A stretch of 64,000 bases of DNA, taken from assembly GCF_009928425.1 (NCBI RefSeq), contig NZ_JAABNS010000001.1, positions 2,790,001-2,854,000 on the forward strand. The letters run 5' to 3'. Position numbers and translations under genes: made by a program. Under the pieces are notes generated by a model. That model saw nothing but the letters and a program-made list of their open reading frames with translations, did not search any database and had not been told where the DNA came from. This document shows positions 18,120 to 25,436 of this stretch, piece by piece (position 1 is the first letter of the stretch; every line of letters starts with the position of its first letter). This DNA comes from Pseudarthrobacter sp. ATCC 49987. Lineage in GTDB: Bacteria > Actinomycetota > Actinomycetes > Actinomycetales > Micrococcaceae.

Positions 18120-18610
18120 TCCCCGGCCGTTAGGCCTGCCGAAACACCTCCATGGCGACCGCGTAGCCACTGCACATCAGCCTTACTCACGAGGAAGAAG
18201 CGCGAAAACAGCAGAATTTTGTACCCGACGGTACGATCTCCGCAACGCAGCCACCGCCGCTGGAATTCTTCGCGGCATGCTCGACGGCGTTCTGGCTGCG
18301 GTCGCCCTCCCCCGGCTTTTCGTGGTGGTTCTTACGATTGTTCGGGCCGTCATCCGCGCCAGAGACCTGAAACGCCGGGGGTATGGCCCGCGCCGGTGGC
18401 CAGTGCGAGATGGAGTCCGGACTCCGGCAGCAGTGCCATCTGCCATCGTAAATAAGTGTGAACTTGGAAGAAATGTAGATCTACACAATTGACAAATATT
18501 ACACAAAACTAATGACAGAAATTGTTAAGTGGAAAGCCTATTTTGAACTGGCGTCCCAGTGCTAAGGTCGGCGAGAACTTTAGTCAAGATCTGATTTATT
18601 GGGGGCACAA
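18120..18610 (+). promoter_or_regulatory. AT-rich leader and promoter region of the excalibur lipoprotein gene
   Basis: This stretch has no convincing gene. From about 18440 the base composition drops sharply in GC. A perfect 12-bp palindrome TGTAGATCTACA (18474-18485) directly precedes TTGACA at 18489, a good -35 candidate, with TAATGA at 18510 as a possible but closely spaced -10. The palindrome overlaps the expected promoter and could be an operator. The region just before the GTG start at 18611 has GGGGG at 18601-18605. Confidence 0.4.
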
Positions 18611-19369
18611 GTGAATACATTCTTTTGGCGCAAAGATGTTCGACTTCCGGACTTAAAAGTCTCTTGCCAGCCTGCTAACGACAAACGGCTTTCGCCAGCT
18701 TCGGGTCGGCTGGCAAAAACCGCCACCGTGGCGAGCGCCGCTCTTCTGGCTCTGACTGCATGTGGAGGCCAGGCCGCTGCCTCGCTGCCCACATCGCCAG
18801 GTTCCACACCAGCTTCCGCGACTGCCGCGGCGTCGGCAAAAACTACTGCGCCGACGACAGTTTCCTGTACTGCAGAAAATTCGCGCGAAACGCACGAGCA
18901 AACGGTCTTTGTCTGCACGAAGACTGACGATGGAAAACTGCAATGGATGGAAAAGTCGGCCTCGCAGCGTGTGACGGATGCTCGAGCGGCGGCCGCCTCG
19001 CTTGCGGTCAAAGCCGGTGCCGACAAAGCAGCATCTGATGCAGCCGCCCAGGAAGCGCAACTGAAAGCTGCGCAGGAACAAGCGGCGGCCGAAGCCGCAC
19101 AGCAGCAGGCGGCCGCCGCTGAAACCGCACGGCAGGAGGCAGCTGCAGCAGCGGCAGCGAAGGTTCCGGCTCCCGTCCAGCCAGCTGTCCCGGCCGCTCC
19201 CTCCGGATGCGACCGCAATTATTCAGGGGCATGCGTACCGATCGCATCTGATGTGGACTGCGCGGGCGGGAACGGCAACGGACCGGCCTACGTAAGGGGA
19301 CCGGTAACTGTCGTCGGAAGTGACATCTACGGATTGGACCGAAACGGGGACGGTGTTGGCTGCGAATAG
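18611..19369 (+). CDS. Excalibur calcium-binding lipoprotein with Ala-rich coiled coil
   Basis: Modular surface protein of 252 residues from the GTG at 18611. It has an N-terminal export signal ending LLALTACGG (lipobox) near residue 50. A Ser/Thr/Ala linker follows. Then comes a short two-cysteine module (CTAENSR to VFVCTK, then WMEKSASQRV), and a long Ala/Gln/Glu coiled coil of about 75 residues. The C-terminus is an excalibur domain (SGCDRNYSGACVP, DVDCAGGNGNGPAYV, DRNGDGVGCE) with the DxDxDGxxCE calcium loop. The same two-cysteine module and coiled coil occur in the protein at 24383-25222, which has a different C-terminal domain. The function is unknown; a cell-wall location is likely. 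Confidence 0.88.
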   Translation: MNTFFWRKDVRLPDLKVSCQPANDKRLSPASGRLAKTATVASAALLALTACGGQAAASLPTSPGSTPASATAAASAKTTAPTTVSCTAENSRETHEQTVFVCTKTDDGKLQWMEKSASQRVTDARAAAASLAVKAGADKAASDAAAQEAQLKAAQEQAAAEAAQQQAAAAETARQEAAAAAAAKVPAPVQPAVPAAPSGCDRNYSGACVPIASDVDCAGGNGNGPAYVRGPVTVVGSDIYGLDRNGDGVGCE

Positions 19370-19518: not shown

Positions 19519-20598
19519 TCAAGCCGCGTTTATCGCTATTGCCGCCGCGCTGAGCGTGCGGTAGATGCGGCGGGCCAGGTAGCGTTTGATGCAACGACGA
19601 ATTTCCTTGTCCGTACGACCCTCGGCGCGTCGCTTTTCCACGTACTGGCGGGTTTCGCCATCATGGGTCATCCTGACGACCGCGACCATGTGCAAGGCGC
19701 TGTTCAGGGACCGGTCACCGCCCCGGTTCAAGCGGTGGCGGACAGTGTTCCCGGAGGACGCGGGGATCGGATTTACCCCGGCCAGGGAGGCAAATGCTGC
19801 CTCGTTGCGGACTCTGCCTTCGTGCGACCACGCGGCGAGGCACTTCGCGGCGCTGATCGCCCTGAACCCCGTCTCCTCCAGCAAGGGTGCGGCATCGCTG
19901 ACCTTCACCAGCTCGTCCAGCTGGTTCTCGTTGGCCGTGAGTTGCTCATCCAGCGCCAGGACGTGTTTGGCCAGCCGCACGGCCTCAGCACGGGCGATGG
20001 ACAAGGCGAGCTCTTCCTCGCGGGAACGCCACTTTGAGACCTCGGTGATCTGGGCGCCTGTGAGCTTCTGGCGGGCATCGATGCCCAGGTCATTGCCCCG
20101 CACCAGGGCGTTGAGCGCGTTGACCGACCGGGTCCGGTCCTTGCTCATGGACCCCCGCGCTGTGACCAGGATCCGCACGCCCTGGCGGACCCCGTCATGA
20201 AGGCGTGGTCGGCGCAGCTTGTCCACCGGCAGGGGCAGAACGGCCATGGCGATCTGGTGGGCGTCCAGGGCATCGGACTTGCCCACGCCACGGCGCTTCT
20301 TGGCATCCATGCGCGGCGCTTCGGCGACTGGGAATCCGTGGGTTGCCACGGTGCCGGCGAGGATCGCTCCGTAGGATGCGGCTCCTTCGATGACCCAGAG
20401 GGTGTCTGCGTCGGCGTTGGTGCGGCGTGCGATCCATTTAATGGCCCGGTTGATCCCGGCTGTGGTGGTGGGGAATGACTGCGTATCCAGTAGTGCGCCG
20501 TTGGTGGCGTCGAGGATGGCGTAAACATGGTTTCGGGCGTGCGTGTCGACACCCACGACAAATGGATGGGCATGCGCGACGATAGACATGGCGGTCAT
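19519..20598 (-). CDS. IS110-family transposase
   Basis: DEDD-type recombinase of 359 residues. The RuvC-like N-terminus shows VVGVDTHARNH, WVIEGAASYG and KSDALDAHQIA, which supply the acidic catalytic residues. The C-terminal Transposase_20 part has LAGVNPIPASSGNTVRHR with the serine nucleophile region, then LNRGGDRSLNSALHMVA. The start at 20598 (MTAMSIVAHAH) has AGGAAGG upstream and is preferred over 20637. The frame is intact, so the element may still be active. It lies between phoD and a fragment of a second phoD copy. Confidence 0.92.
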   Translation of the reverse strand: MTAMSIVAHAHPFVVGVDTHARNHVYAILDATNGALLDTQSFPTTTAGINRAIKWIARRTNADADTLWVIEGAASYGAILAGTVATHGFPVAEAPRMDAKKRRGVGKSDALDAHQIAMAVLPLPVDKLRRPRLHDGVRQGVRILVTARGSMSKDRTRSVNALNALVRGNDLGIDARQKLTGAQITEVSKWRSREEELALSIARAEAVRLAKHVLALDEQLTANENQLDELVKVSDAAPLLEETGFRAISAAKCLAAWSHEGRVRNEAAFASLAGVNPIPASSGNTVRHRLNRGGDRSLNSALHMVAVVRMTHDGETRQYVEKRRAEGRTDKEIRRCIKRYLARRIYRTLSAAAIAINAA

Positions 20599-20639
20599 TC
20601 CTACCTTCCTCTTCACGGATGTGGTCATGGCCGTCACCG

Positions 20640-21355: not shown

Positions 21356-21913
21356 ATGAACGGCCGAACGCAATCGCACCTGTCGTCCGGTGTCCGGACG
21401 GTTTTCCTGATCCTCGTCGCAACCCTGATGGCTGGCTGCACGGCACCGCAGCAGCCCCCCGTAGCGACAAGCAGCGCCCCGCCGGCCACCCAGGCCCCCG
21501 CGCCGGTGGCGGAAAGCTTCGCCAAGTACGAGGCCCTGCGTGCAGAGATGATTGCGGCGCTGGAAGCGAAAATGCCGGACATCAGCTGGACCGTGGACAA
21601 GCCAGCCACCCTGGCCGCTTCGAAGGACGGCAGATGCCTGCTCACGCCGCAGACCATGAAGAGCAGCGCCGACGTGGTGGAGCCCTCCAACCACTTCGCT
21701 GACATTTTCGCGGCTGGCGACCCGGTCCTGGCGCGGCACGGATTCCCTGCCTTCGGTGGAACGGACGCAGTTCCCGGCGGCTGGGTGGTAGCCCGCAGCA
21801 CGGACGCCGACGGCGCCACCCTGACGATCGAATCAAAGAGCCCGGCATACCTGCGCATCAGCGTCCCGGTTGACTCCCCCACTTGCAACGCGGACGAGAT
21901 CCCCCCGAAATGA
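21356..21913 (+). CDS. Small lipoprotein of unknown function
   Basis: A 185-residue predicted lipoprotein. The ATG at 21356 follows GGGGGAAA. The signal helix (VRTVFLILVATL) ends in the lipobox MAGC. A Pro/Ala linker leads to a folded domain with two cysteines (DGRCLLTPQTM and DSPTCNADEIPPK) that could form a disulfide. No family was recognised. It lies 80 bases upstream of the WXG100-calpain gene in the same direction and may be co-transcribed, perhaps as an envelope partner. That link is only positional. Confidence 0.75.
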   Translation: MNGRTQSHLSSGVRTVFLILVATLMAGCTAPQQPPVATSSAPPATQAPAPVAESFAKYEALRAEMIAALEAKMPDISWTVDKPATLAASKDGRCLLTPQTMKSSADVVEPSNHFADIFAAGDPVLARHGFPAFGGTDAVPGGWVVARSTDADGATLTIESKSPAYLRISVPVDSPTCNADEIPPK

Positions 21914-21993
21914 CGGAGGCATAACTCCCCGGCAGGAGAACCGCGGCAGACAGACAACACCACAGCTTGACGTTATCTTAAGGGGAGAACCGG

Positions 21994-23079
21994 ATGCCGG
22001 GATTTTATGGCGCCGACATTGGCCAGTTGCGGGCACTCGCAAAAACGATGGCGCAGCATTCCGACAAGGTGGGCGCATTGTCCACGGAACTGGGCCAGCT
22101 GCTTTCCCGGGCACCTTGGGAAGGGCGTGACGCCGTCGCGTTCCGGGCCGACTGGCTCTCGGAACACCGGCCAACGCTCCAACGCGTTGCCGCCGGACTC
22201 CGCGATCAAGCACAGGAACTGACCCGCAATGCGGACCAGCAGGACCGTGCCAGCGCGGGAGCTGCTGGGTCTGGAGGTTCAGGAAAGCCGGACTCTAATC
22301 CTCCCGGGGATCCGGGACCGCTGGACCCGGACCGCCCCGACGTCGACGTGCCCGGTGACGTCCGCGAGGACCCGGATGCCGGCGATCCCGGCGATATCCG
22401 GCAGGGACAGATTGGCGACTGCTGGCTCCTGGCAGGGATCGGATCGGTTGCCCAGACCCTGGAACGGGAAGACAAGCTCGATGAATTCCTCGCCGAACAC
22501 ATGCGCCCCGTGGGTGATCCGGCCACGCAATGGGTGGTCACCCTTCACGAAGACGGCGAGCCTGTGGAAGTCACGGTTGAAGCCAAGTCCACCGACGGCG
22601 GCGTCCGGGGTGAAGATGGCGAGCCCAGCTGGCTGTCCATCTACGAACGCGCCGCGGCGGAGCACCGGGGCGGTTCCTATGACGACATCGACGGCGGCTT
22701 CAGCCACGAGGCCATGGAACTGATGACAGGTAGGTCCGCGGACAAGGACGGCGAACTGGACCTGGCTGAGATCGAGGACAAGCTCGCCGGCGGCCAGGCT
22801 GTGTCCGTGGGCACCGAAGACACCAAGGACGACGATTTTGACTGGGTCTGGGAGTCCGACGAGGTCAACCGCACCGACGTCGTGCCCAACCACGCGTACG
22901 TCGTGGTTGAGGTGAAAACCAACGATGACGGCGAGAAGGTAGTTGTTCTGGCTAACCCATGGGGACCGTCCGGCGGCTTCATGAGCGGCGACGACGACCG
23001 CAAGGCGGGGACCCTGGAACTGACCGAGGATGAGTACAAGGAAAACTTTGATTCCGTGTACTCCGTGGATACGAAGTGA
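21994..23079 (+). CDS. WXG100-type protein fused to a calpain-like (C2) cysteine protease
   Basis: The 361-residue protein starts with a WXG100-like helical hairpin (residues 1-88, with PWEG at 41-44 and the usual YGADIGQLRAL opening). An Asp/Pro-rich linker (95-133) follows. The rest is a papain-like domain of calpain type: GQIGDCWLLAGIGSVA with Cys143, PNHAYVVVEV with His300 and LANPWGPSGGF with Asn321. All three catalytic residues are present. WXG100 proteins are substrates of the type VII (ESX) secretion system, so this is plausibly a secreted protease or toxin. A small gene follows almost directly. The Asp-rich region DKDGELDLAEIED (251-263) resembles a calcium loop. C2-type assignment is secure; role is inferred. 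Confidence 0.85.
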   Translation: MPGFYGADIGQLRALAKTMAQHSDKVGALSTELGQLLSRAPWEGRDAVAFRADWLSEHRPTLQRVAAGLRDQAQELTRNADQQDRASAGAAGSGGSGKPDSNPPGDPGPLDPDRPDVDVPGDVREDPDAGDPGDIRQGQIGDCWLLAGIGSVAQTLEREDKLDEFLAEHMRPVGDPATQWVVTLHEDGEPVEVTVEAKSTDGGVRGEDGEPSWLSIYERAAAEHRGGSYDDIDGGFSHEAMELMTGRSADKDGELDLAEIEDKLAGGQAVSVGTEDTKDDDFDWVWESDEVNRTDVVPNHAYVVVEVKTNDDGEKVVVLANPWGPSGGFMSGDDDRKAGTLELTEDEYKENFDSVYSVDTK

Positions 23080-23087
23080 GGGCGGCA

Positions 23088-23375
23088 GTGGAACAGCTTG
23101 TAACAGTCAAACAGGGCATGCAGCCCACGTTCGGCGGTGTCCAGGTGGGGATCGTCAAGATCGGCGTGGCTGACGGCGCCCCGGCCATCCAGGTCTGGAT
23201 ACGGACCTCACAGCAGCAGCGTAAGCAGGCATTCCGCGAGGGCCACTCGGTCGCCTTGCCCGGCGCAGGAACCCTACGGTTCGCTTCCATTCAGCCAGCG
23301 GACGGAAACACTCCCGCGTCGGCAGTCCTGGCCTACGAGGCCGTCAGCACCACAGCCCCGGGAGCTAGCGACTGA
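23088..23375 (+). CDS. Small beta-rich protein coupled to the calpain-like protease
   Basis: A 95-residue protein without signal peptide or cysteines, predicted to be mostly beta strand (VTVKQGMQPTFGGVQVGIV, then a basic QQQRKQAFREG). The GTG at 23088 has GAGG six bases upstream. An in-frame GTG at 23076 would overlap the protease stop as GTGA. Either way translation is tightly linked to the protease. It may be an inhibitor/immunity protein or secretion chaperone. A resemblance to DUF6406-type proteins was considered but is not certain. Confidence 0.65.
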   Translation: MEQLVTVKQGMQPTFGGVQVGIVKIGVADGAPAIQVWIRTSQQQRKQAFREGHSVALPGAGTLRFASIQPADGNTPASAVLAYEAVSTTAPGASD

Positions 23376-24382: not shown

Positions 24383-25222
24383 TTACTTGTACCAGACAGA
24401 AACGCCTCTGTGACCGGAGCACGTTCCGCGATGATTGGCCGAAAAGGACAACGTGCCATCGACACATAGGGCTGTGGCGCCGCTCGCATTCTGCTGAGTT
24501 GGCGCTTGGTTCGCTGCTTGTTGAGCTGCCGCAGCTTGATCCGCAGCTGCTTGCTGGGCGGCTGTCTGCTGGGCTGCCAGCGTGTCAGCGGCCGCTTTGT
24601 CAGCAGCAGCCTTGTCAGCAATTGCCTTGTCTGCAATTGCTTTGTCCGCAGCAGCCTTATCAGCTGCCACCTTGTCTGCCGCGGCTTTATCCGAAGCTTG
24701 CTTCTGAGCCACGACCCGTTTGGACTCGGACTCGGACATCCACACCAGACGCTGATCGCTTCCCATGGTGCATATGAAGAGGTCGCCGGTGTAATTCCGT
24801 GTCTCGCTTGCGGTAAGACACGCCGAGTTGGCCGGGCTCGTGGCTGTGGGCGTTGCAGTGGGCGTTGCAGTGTCCGACTGCTGCGCGGAGGCTACCAAGG
24901 CCGACTTATCGGAGACGACGCTTGGGGCCGCGGTAGCGGCCGCCACACCCGCCCCCACGATGAAGGCAACAACACCAGACACTGCCACCAAACCTGCTGA
25001 CTTCCGGTGCGGAAGCCCGACCCAGGATTTCCGCTTGAAGAGCAGGGCGTACAACCCAGTGAGCACGGCTACGATTCCGAGAATCAAGAGGACCCCGCCA
25101 ACGCCGCCCACCGCAGCGAAGATTATGACCAGAAACAGCACCAATGCTGCCACTATCCAAAATGACACAGAGGGCTGCCAGCGGCGCTTTGGGCGCGAGG
25201 CAGCGCCAGGACTTTCGATCAT
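24383..25222 (-). CDS. Membrane-anchored modular protein with C-terminal DUF3761 domain
   Basis: A 279-residue protein from the ATG at 25222, which has GGGGGA upstream; an in-frame ATG at 25234 is weaker. Two hydrophobic segments come first (FWIVAALVLFLVIIFAAVGG, and GVLLILGIVAVLTGLYALLF), then a third (GLVAVSGVVAFIVGAGVAAA). A two-cysteine module follows (ACLTASETR to LFICTM, then WMSESESKRV), then AADK-type coiled-coil repeats of about 80 residues. The C-terminal DUF3761 unit is CVDGTLSFSANHRGTCSGH. The module and coiled coil parallel the excalibur protein at 18611-19369. The repeats are coding, not a satellite. Function unknown. Confidence 0.85.
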   Translation of the reverse strand: MIESPGAASRPKRRWQPSVSFWIVAALVLFLVIIFAAVGGVGGVLLILGIVAVLTGLYALLFKRKSWVGLPHRKSAGLVAVSGVVAFIVGAGVAAATAAPSVVSDKSALVASAQQSDTATPTATPTATSPANSACLTASETRNYTGDLFICTMGSDQRLVWMSESESKRVVAQKQASDKAAADKVAADKAAADKAIADKAIADKAAADKAAADTLAAQQTAAQQAAADQAAAAQQAANQAPTQQNASGATALCVDGTLSFSANHRGTCSGHRGVSVWYK

Positions 25223-25436
25223 TGTTTCCCCCATAGAAGATGTGACGCGGTGTGCGGCTGGGTCAATATAACACCCGTTCTCGCCACCGTTCCACTGATG
25301 CGCATCCCGGGAAGGCCGGAGATTGTTCAGACGCAGTGCAAATCGGGCCGCGGTTTCGTTGAGCGCAATCCCACCGGCATGCTCGATGGCCCAATACCTC
25401 TCGGGCGCAATGCAAAGCAAGCGGCGCTCTGCCCAT

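Follow-up and report, generated by a model that had tools for sequence, protein, structure and literature searches.

Three neighboring genes in the window, the 64,000-nucleotide stretch of Pseudarthrobacter sp. ATCC 49987 DNA analyzed here, may form a single effector-immunity module, a reading to which we give an even chance: a type VII (T7)-exported Peptidase_C2 protease toxin, a cytosolic inhibitor and a surface lipoprotein guard. The domain architecture, catalytic residues, apparent purifying selection, linkage kept through rearrangement, a secretion locus and a head homologous to a WXG100 protein, all read from sequence, point to it. A fuller version, possible but held more tentatively, is that the module is a widespread weapon of actinobacteria with T7SSd-like secretion, in which a calpain-family toxin would be restrained by two unrelated inhibitors, a DUF6406-type protein in the cytosol and an LppA-fold lipoprotein at the surface. 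The interpretation in an earlier note on this DNA, a secreted calpain-like effector with a dedicated inhibitor, is supported in part. The genome carrying the window (G000, 4.40 Mb; G numbers denote other genomes and L numbers loci) had Arthrobacter-group records as its best matches among the best 80 of 93 relatives. The features of the module are:

21356..21913, + strand: lipoprotein, 185 aa, start ATG 21356, lipobox LMAG-C28, predicted surface immunity protein
21980..21993, + strand: likely ribosome-binding site ahead of the protease start, purine-rich AAGGGGAGA, read from the sequence
21994..23079, + strand: WXG100-headed Peptidase_C2 (calpain-type) protease, intact ORF, 361 aa
21994..22260, + strand: WXG100-like secretion head, aa 1-89, W42-x-G44
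22402..22404, + strand: Q137 codon, Gln preceding the Cys, invariant in 18/18
22420..22422, + strand: C143 codon, nucleophile, invariant in 18/18
22891..22893, + strand: H300 codon, invariant in 18/18
22954..22956, + strand: N321 codon, invariant in 18/18
23088..23375, + strand: small partner, 95 aa, GTG start, all-beta predicted fold, DUF6406-like, predicted cytosolic inhibitor

The 361-residue ORF bears out the earlier claim of a WXG100-type head fused to a C2 protease. The head (residues 1-89) is followed by a Gly/Pro/Asp-rich linker and the Peptidase_C2 domain (residues 132-325). The Peptidase_C2 profile scored 64.7 bits, above its cut-off of 23.8, and the head fell below both of its cut-offs (21 bits versus 27.3 for PF06013, WXG100; 28.1 versus 44.85 for TIGR03930). 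This profile score, together with the Cys-His-Asn triad and the Gln that precedes it, places the protein in peptidase family C2. W42, G44, Q137, C143, H300 and N321 were invariant in all 18 aligned protease sequences; the last three are the catalytic residues that had been described as intact, and they lie at exactly those positions. We take Q137 to be the oxyanion-hole glutamine, judging from its position before the cysteine. The solved structures nearest by sequence were calpains (calpain-8, 2nqa, E 9.6e-9). Comparison with four relatives gave dN/dS values of 0.10-0.16 for the C2 part, 0.29-0.56 for the head, 0.20-0.28 for the lipoprotein and 0.12-0.20 for the partner; all four look to be under purifying selection (every dN/dS < 1, 0.10-0.56).

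The acidic, calcium-like segment described in the protease did not hold up. The acidic loop at residues 249-258 is not conserved among the aligned protease sequences, and calcium dependence finds no support in the sequence. Calpain calcium site 1 is not kept: the position of Glu175 is a proline, and that of Asp96, here D134, is D in 7 of 18 sequences. The residue-by-residue check was confined to site 1, where Ile89 and Gly91 had no alignable counterpart. According to the available parts of one paper, site 1 is kept by some bacterial C2 members only (Rawlings 2015, PMC4631099). A second C2 gene of the genome, at 166-170 kb of contig C1 (L006 8086-11953), encodes a protein that is hydrophobic over an N-terminal stretch and gave no WXG match; two phosphoesterase-family genes follow it, and no lipoprotein- or partner-family member was found near it. 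A close relative of this second protease in G187 (L143) has different neighbors.

The 95-residue partner does directly follow the protease, as the earlier note had it, with its GTG at 23088 lying 8 nt past the protease stop. Two relatives (L026 and L035) have ATG at this start codon, and the longest partner frame begins at GTG 23076, overlapping the protease stop. An AlphaFold model of the partner is all-beta (pLDDT 88.2, pTM 0.72), and structure comparison with this model gave no telling fold match. The DUF6406 profile (PF19944) scored 15.2 bits on the window partner, against a cut-off of 26.9. Across the partner alignment (37 sequences chosen from 60 matched frames, excluding close copies and misparsed pieces), 15 of the 37 sequences matched DUF6406 at E <= 0.1, the best at 3.6e-6; judged by these profile matches, the partner family resembles DUF6406. 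Among 296 genomes of the phylum, two had DUF6406 matches covering the family (L100 and L101). L100 comes from an 8.2-Mb genome of the same class and a different order; there the DUF6406 gene (90.4 bits) shares 4 nt with a C2 gene that scored 42.1 bits for Peptidase_C2 and had no Pfam WXG match, an independent instance of the pairing. The short stretch around the DUF6406 gene of L101 contained no C2 gene.

Upstream, the ORF starting at ATG 21356 is a lipoprotein, as had been noted, with the lipobox LMAG-C28. Its predicted fold is LppA-like, with 11% identity to LppA (2v7s) in the structural alignment and 7% to DUF4853 (4mjg). Neither the LppA fold (2v7s) nor DUF4853 (4mjg) is known to have a protease neighbor. 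The Pfam matches obtained for the window lipoprotein and for its 50 relatives do not include DUF576. We aligned 51 lipoprotein sequences chosen from 66 matched frames, again excluding close copies and misparsed pieces, and the lipobox cysteine was present in 48. The three exceptions (L078, L080 and L093) have no signal sequence and occupy the partner's place: the signal-less gene adjoins the protease, and a family member with a lipobox comes next.

To survey the neighborhood, we assembled 77 loci from public genome records, drawn from the best 80 of 93 relatives, and scanned them with models of the head, C2 domain, partner and lipoprotein. The query was the alignment of headed proteins, so headed loci are favored in this set. 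Within these limits, 55 of the 77 loci had a WXG head. Among the 55, the partner was downstream in 49 and the lipoprotein nearby in 52; both were present in 46 and at least one in all 55. The 22 headless loci, from the same best 80 of 93, had the partner in eight, the lipoprotein in seven, both in four and neither in 11, these last comprising six from Planctomycetes, one from Myxococcota and four actinobacterial loci (L079, L082, L085 and L087). The three headed loci lacking the lipoprotein were L056, L062 and L064. Six headed loci gave no partner match with the model; at the expected site, three of these carry a diverged candidate, and each candidate outscored all 2000 of its shuffles. L067 and L069, which have neither head nor lipoprotein, gave weak partner matches at distances of 520 and 289 nt. 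With BLAST alone on 16 loci, one per genus, C2 was found in 16, the partner in 13 and the lipoprotein in 12; antisense shadow frames aside, the next most recurrent family, UvrA-like by sequence, appeared in five.

The lipoprotein is as firmly linked to the protease as the small partner is, although its place is not fixed. We built a tree from 45 of the 78 C2 domains (the window and the 77 loci), in which certain branches are long and not securely placed, and scored the lipoprotein as upstream or downstream, on the same or the opposite strand, or absent (one clade). On this tree its position underwent at least eight changes of state, one of them a loss; it has stayed close to the protease gene despite repeated changes of side and strand. 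Since four Nocardioides loci without a detectable head retain both partner and lipoprotein, and a WXG-headed gene at 593 kb of C1 has no match to either nearby, the partners follow the protease and not the head. That gene (L008 5981-7663) encodes a 338-residue protein whose C-terminal part is different and hydrophobic; right behind it is a gene for 219 residues with no Pfam match, possibly making a further effector pair.

Among 197 genomes of the same family, we found eight full-length WXG-C2 proteins in seven genomes, all with lipoprotein and partner alongside. A ninth locus, in G192, has decayed: its matches fall in more than one frame, and the frame read lacks the active-site cysteine. The lipoprotein gave 12 matches above 60 bits, nine beside a C2 gene (one decayed) and three orphans. 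Two orphans (G128 and G170) have an internal stop, and that of G152 (L135 7422-7967) is intact, in a genome of the same genus without a full-length protease match. Of the 54 lipoprotein rows, we set aside the 42 that fell under 60 bits, many of which cover little beyond the signal region; they include two beside C2 genes (G113 and G192) and three, at 28-35 bits, that extend over the greater part of the model and are possibly distant relatives (G026, G082 and G003). The partner matched nine times, each time beside a C2 gene (counting the decayed locus) and never beside another WXG-headed protein. The co-occurrence survey suggested in the earlier note thus came out in favor of the pair, with 49 of 55 headed loci among the best 80 of 93 and all nine matches here; since the two genes co-occur strongly, the absence of co-occurrence that the note had named as grounds for abandoning its proposal does not apply. 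Both candidate guards co-occur with and adjoin the protease gene, as is characteristic of a T7 effector-immunity module.

T7 substrates are often encoded next to small partner proteins (PMC11217815, in the parts available), and the partner here could be a Lap-like targeting factor directed at the head instead of a protease inhibitor. We regard this as very improbable: the partner is predicted to be all-beta with no helical hairpin, its family is kept where the head is undetectable (L061, L063, L066, L068, L073 and L076), a DUF6406 relative neighbors a C2 gene for which Pfam gave no WXG match, and the 197 genomes tie it to C2 genes and not to other WXG-headed proteins.

Another alternative, unlikely in our estimate, is that the protease serves the producer itself as an exported envelope enzyme that processes surface proteins or remodels the wall, with the lipoprotein as its anchor or activator and the partner as a chaperone that follows C2. 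Apparent purifying selection on all parts would suit such an enzyme, the lipoprotein is also plausible as a tether, and the position of the partner directly downstream is chaperone-like, linkage being unable to separate an inhibitor from a chaperone. However, full-length copies are patchily spread, in seven of 197 family genomes, and several observations fit immunity better: the lipoproteins without a protease, the extra lipoprotein copies in L030, L041 and L072, and the signal-less paralogs in the partner's place. Other C2 genes, moreover, have surface-type neighbors unrelated to this family.

Such neighbors occur in several family genomes, where we take other proteins to be answering an equivalent need for surface protection. 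In G177, G175 and G052, longer WXG-headed C2 proteins (474-501 aa) have neither the partner nor the lipoprotein family; an unrelated lipoprotein-type gene overlaps the protease 3' end in G177 and G175, and no lipoprotein was seen beside the gene of G052. Loci L139 (3097-5045) and L140 (3204-5170) carry a second type of WXG-headed C2 protein, at 497-501 aa, whose gene is overlapped at the 3' end by an unrelated lipoprotein-type gene. In G129, a C2 gene with no head match precedes one whose product has a hydrophobic stretch and is likely anchored in the membrane; at L142 (2157-4828), a 676-residue C2 protein precedes a 214-residue protein with a hydrophobic stretch, the genes overlapping by 4 nt, possibly a third type of guard.

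Within the proposed effector-immunity module, we assign the two guards different roles. For the 95-residue protein, proposed earlier as an immunity protein or chaperone, the linkage stood and the classical immunity role passes to the lipoprotein, which by sequence is predicted to be a surface immunity protein and the better candidate; the small partner is more likely a cytosolic inhibitor than a classical immunity protein. The lipoprotein could instead be an anchor or receptor.

The earlier note had proposed looking for ESX genes in the genome. The classical kinds were not found in a search that covered EccC/EssC and YukD: we obtained no EccC/EssC match over the cut-off and no YukD. The lack of an ESX system, which the note had also named as grounds for abandoning its proposal, therefore does apply to the classical kinds within this search. 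A T7SSd-like locus was present instead, at 2.48-2.51 Mb of C1, encoding a 2050-residue protein with Ig-like domains, adjoined by a second long frame, as well as MoxR, DUF58, transglutaminase, RDD-FHA and PP2C proteins, a kinase, an FHA-EssC ATPase and a small protein that is FHA-like by eye and has no Pfam match. The 1481-residue ATPase scored 534.9 bits for TIGR03928, under the cut-off of 778.4, and has an N-terminal FHA domain (41.4 bits). Garrett et al. 2024 (PMC11217815) report T7SSd from groups that include Olsenella and bifidobacteria. As far as the available parts of that paper go, the system is likewise found in Actinomycetota and combines an FHA-bearing ATPase, TsdC, with a Ser/Thr kinase, a WXG100 protein and a giant Ig-like protein; the locus here has the FHA-bearing EssC-like ATPase, the Ser/Thr kinase and the giant Ig-like protein but adds PP2C, MoxR, DUF58, transglutaminase and RDD-FHA, and its WXG100 gene is elsewhere on the chromosome. 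The locus thus resembles T7SSd, a likeness drawn from gene content rather than from an ATPase tree. A second FHA-FtsK/SpoIIIE ATPase of about 1410 residues, EssC-like over part of its length (265 bits), is encoded at 947 kb of C1 (L015 8067-12299).

The head of the protease is related to an 87-residue WXG100 protein of the genome (32% identity over 82 aa, 51.6 bits, E 9e-14), less clearly to its canonical WXG100 protein (18.9 bits). The 87-residue protein is encoded at 3.845 Mb of C1 (L138), 1.36 Mb from the EssC-like locus, and is 83% identical to the WXG100 protein next to EssC in G164; WXG100-type genes also adjoin EssC in G006 and in G193, where the gene order is alike. In the genomes given for 37 of the 77 loci, EssC-like genes were present in all 35 actinobacterial C2 genomes (weakest in G226, where the gene is in pieces), and the two Planctomycetes C2 genomes had weak FtsK-level matches and nothing EssC-like beyond these. 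At E <= 1e-70, 125 of the 197 family genomes had EssC-like genes: 37 of the 38 genomes with a head among the matches listed (rows of G001 left out), versus 88 of the 159 others (Fisher p 1.1e-7, kinship ignored). The exception, G144, has a head without an EssC-like gene. As EssC-like genes are common in the family and also occur in three C2 genomes without a head match at the C2 gene (L079, L082 and L085), this association is suggestive only.

If these genes work as an effector-immunity module, the protease would be made together with its 95-residue inhibitor. Its head would pair with a WXG100 protein and be passed to the FHA-bearing EssC ATPase of the T7SSd-like system, the inhibitor remaining behind in the producer cytosol. 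The protease would then act at the outer membrane face or in the wall of a neighbor; cells with the matching lipoprotein would bind and block it, so that the producer and its kin would be shielded at the surface. From the gene content we infer export, toxicity to neighboring bacteria and inhibition by each partner. Since both guards would likely protect the producer, one outside and one inside, the module is probably a weapon against rival bacteria. That the protease is aimed instead at non-bacterial competitors or predators such as fungi or amoebae, the guards being mere safety devices, is improbable. Nothing that we found fixes the target, and calpain-type enzymes are mainly eukaryotic, which says little about it; however, a lipoprotein dedicated to guarding would mean that the protease endangers the envelope of the producer itself, and the orphan lipoprotein genes, found where no full-length protease is encoded, fit bacterial rivalry.

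Two-compartment guarding and guarding by a surface lipoprotein are known by experiment, from EsxX and TslA/TilA, respectively (PMC12744356, PMC10730906). Because in the 197 family genomes the lipoprotein occurs without the protease and the partner does not, the pattern here is like theirs, which favors an exported protease toxin that one protein would inhibit in the cytosol and another would guard against at the surface. EsxX, a toxin of the Staphylococcus T7SSb, has two immunity families, ExiAB and ExiCD, in two compartments; ExiCD, the outer guard, also occurs as an orphan and ExiAB does not, as with lipoprotein and partner here (PMC12744356, available parts). EsxX, however, acts by depolarizing membranes, and the outer guard against it consists of a polytopic membrane pair, whereas a protease and a lipoprotein are predicted here. 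TslA is a T7-exported enzyme toxin guarded by the surface lipoprotein TilA, further homologs of which are encoded upstream in some strains; it differs in being a phospholipase with a C-terminal targeting domain, and TilA is a DUF576 protein (PMC10730906, available parts). Cpe1-Cpi1 likewise pairs a cysteine protease toxin with an adjacent immunity gene, but the portions available describe a Gram-negative, T6SS- and CDI-linked system with one immunity protein and a papain-like protease similar to ABC-transporter-associated peptidases (PMC12136450).

WXG100-calpain fusions and their likely toxin role have been known since 2015. Fusions of a WXG100 domain to Peptidase_C2, as here, were noted in Herpetosiphon and Segniliparus (Rawlings 2015, PMC4631099), and the reviewer L. 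Aravind commented there that they are likely secreted T7SS toxins. The available text of that paper names no partner, immunity gene, lipoprotein neighbor or secretion locus, and the word Arthrobacter is absent from it. Beyond it, our literature search, going mostly by brief descriptions, found no paper describing the module; we found no mention of DUF6406 or DUF4853 in the literature searched, and the word calpain is absent from the available text of the 2012 polymorphic-toxin survey. As far as these searches show, this is the first account of the three genes as a module, of the two candidate guards within it, of its occurrence across many genera of actinobacteria and of a link to a T7SSd-like system.

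Only one bacterial calpain homolog, Tpr, has been characterized biochemically, and doubtfully so, and eukaryotic calpains may derive from bacterial genes, according to the parts available of the same paper (Rawlings 2015, PMC4631099). For one bacterial C2 group, the module would supply a definite task, a means of delivery and two candidate inhibitors; for T7SSd-like systems in Micrococcales, it would supply a class of cargo. It would also suggest what the DUF6406-like family and LppA-fold lipoproteins do. If the two-inhibitor weapon is real, these would be the first functions for both orphan families, the DUF6406-type partner would in effect be a bacterial calpastatin, and inhibition of calpains by dedicated proteins would be older and broader than the animal system.

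Other genes in the window include a probable transposase gene at 19519-20637 (- strand), a little upstream of the module, whose product we take to be of the IS110 type and which may bear on the mobility of the region. At 18599-19369 (+ strand) is a gene for a secreted-looking protein of 256 residues with an Excalibur-like motif at its end (18 bits, under the cut-off of 22). A 345-residue protein encoded at 24383-25420 (- strand) combines hydrophobic stretches with a long run of DKAAADK-type repeats.
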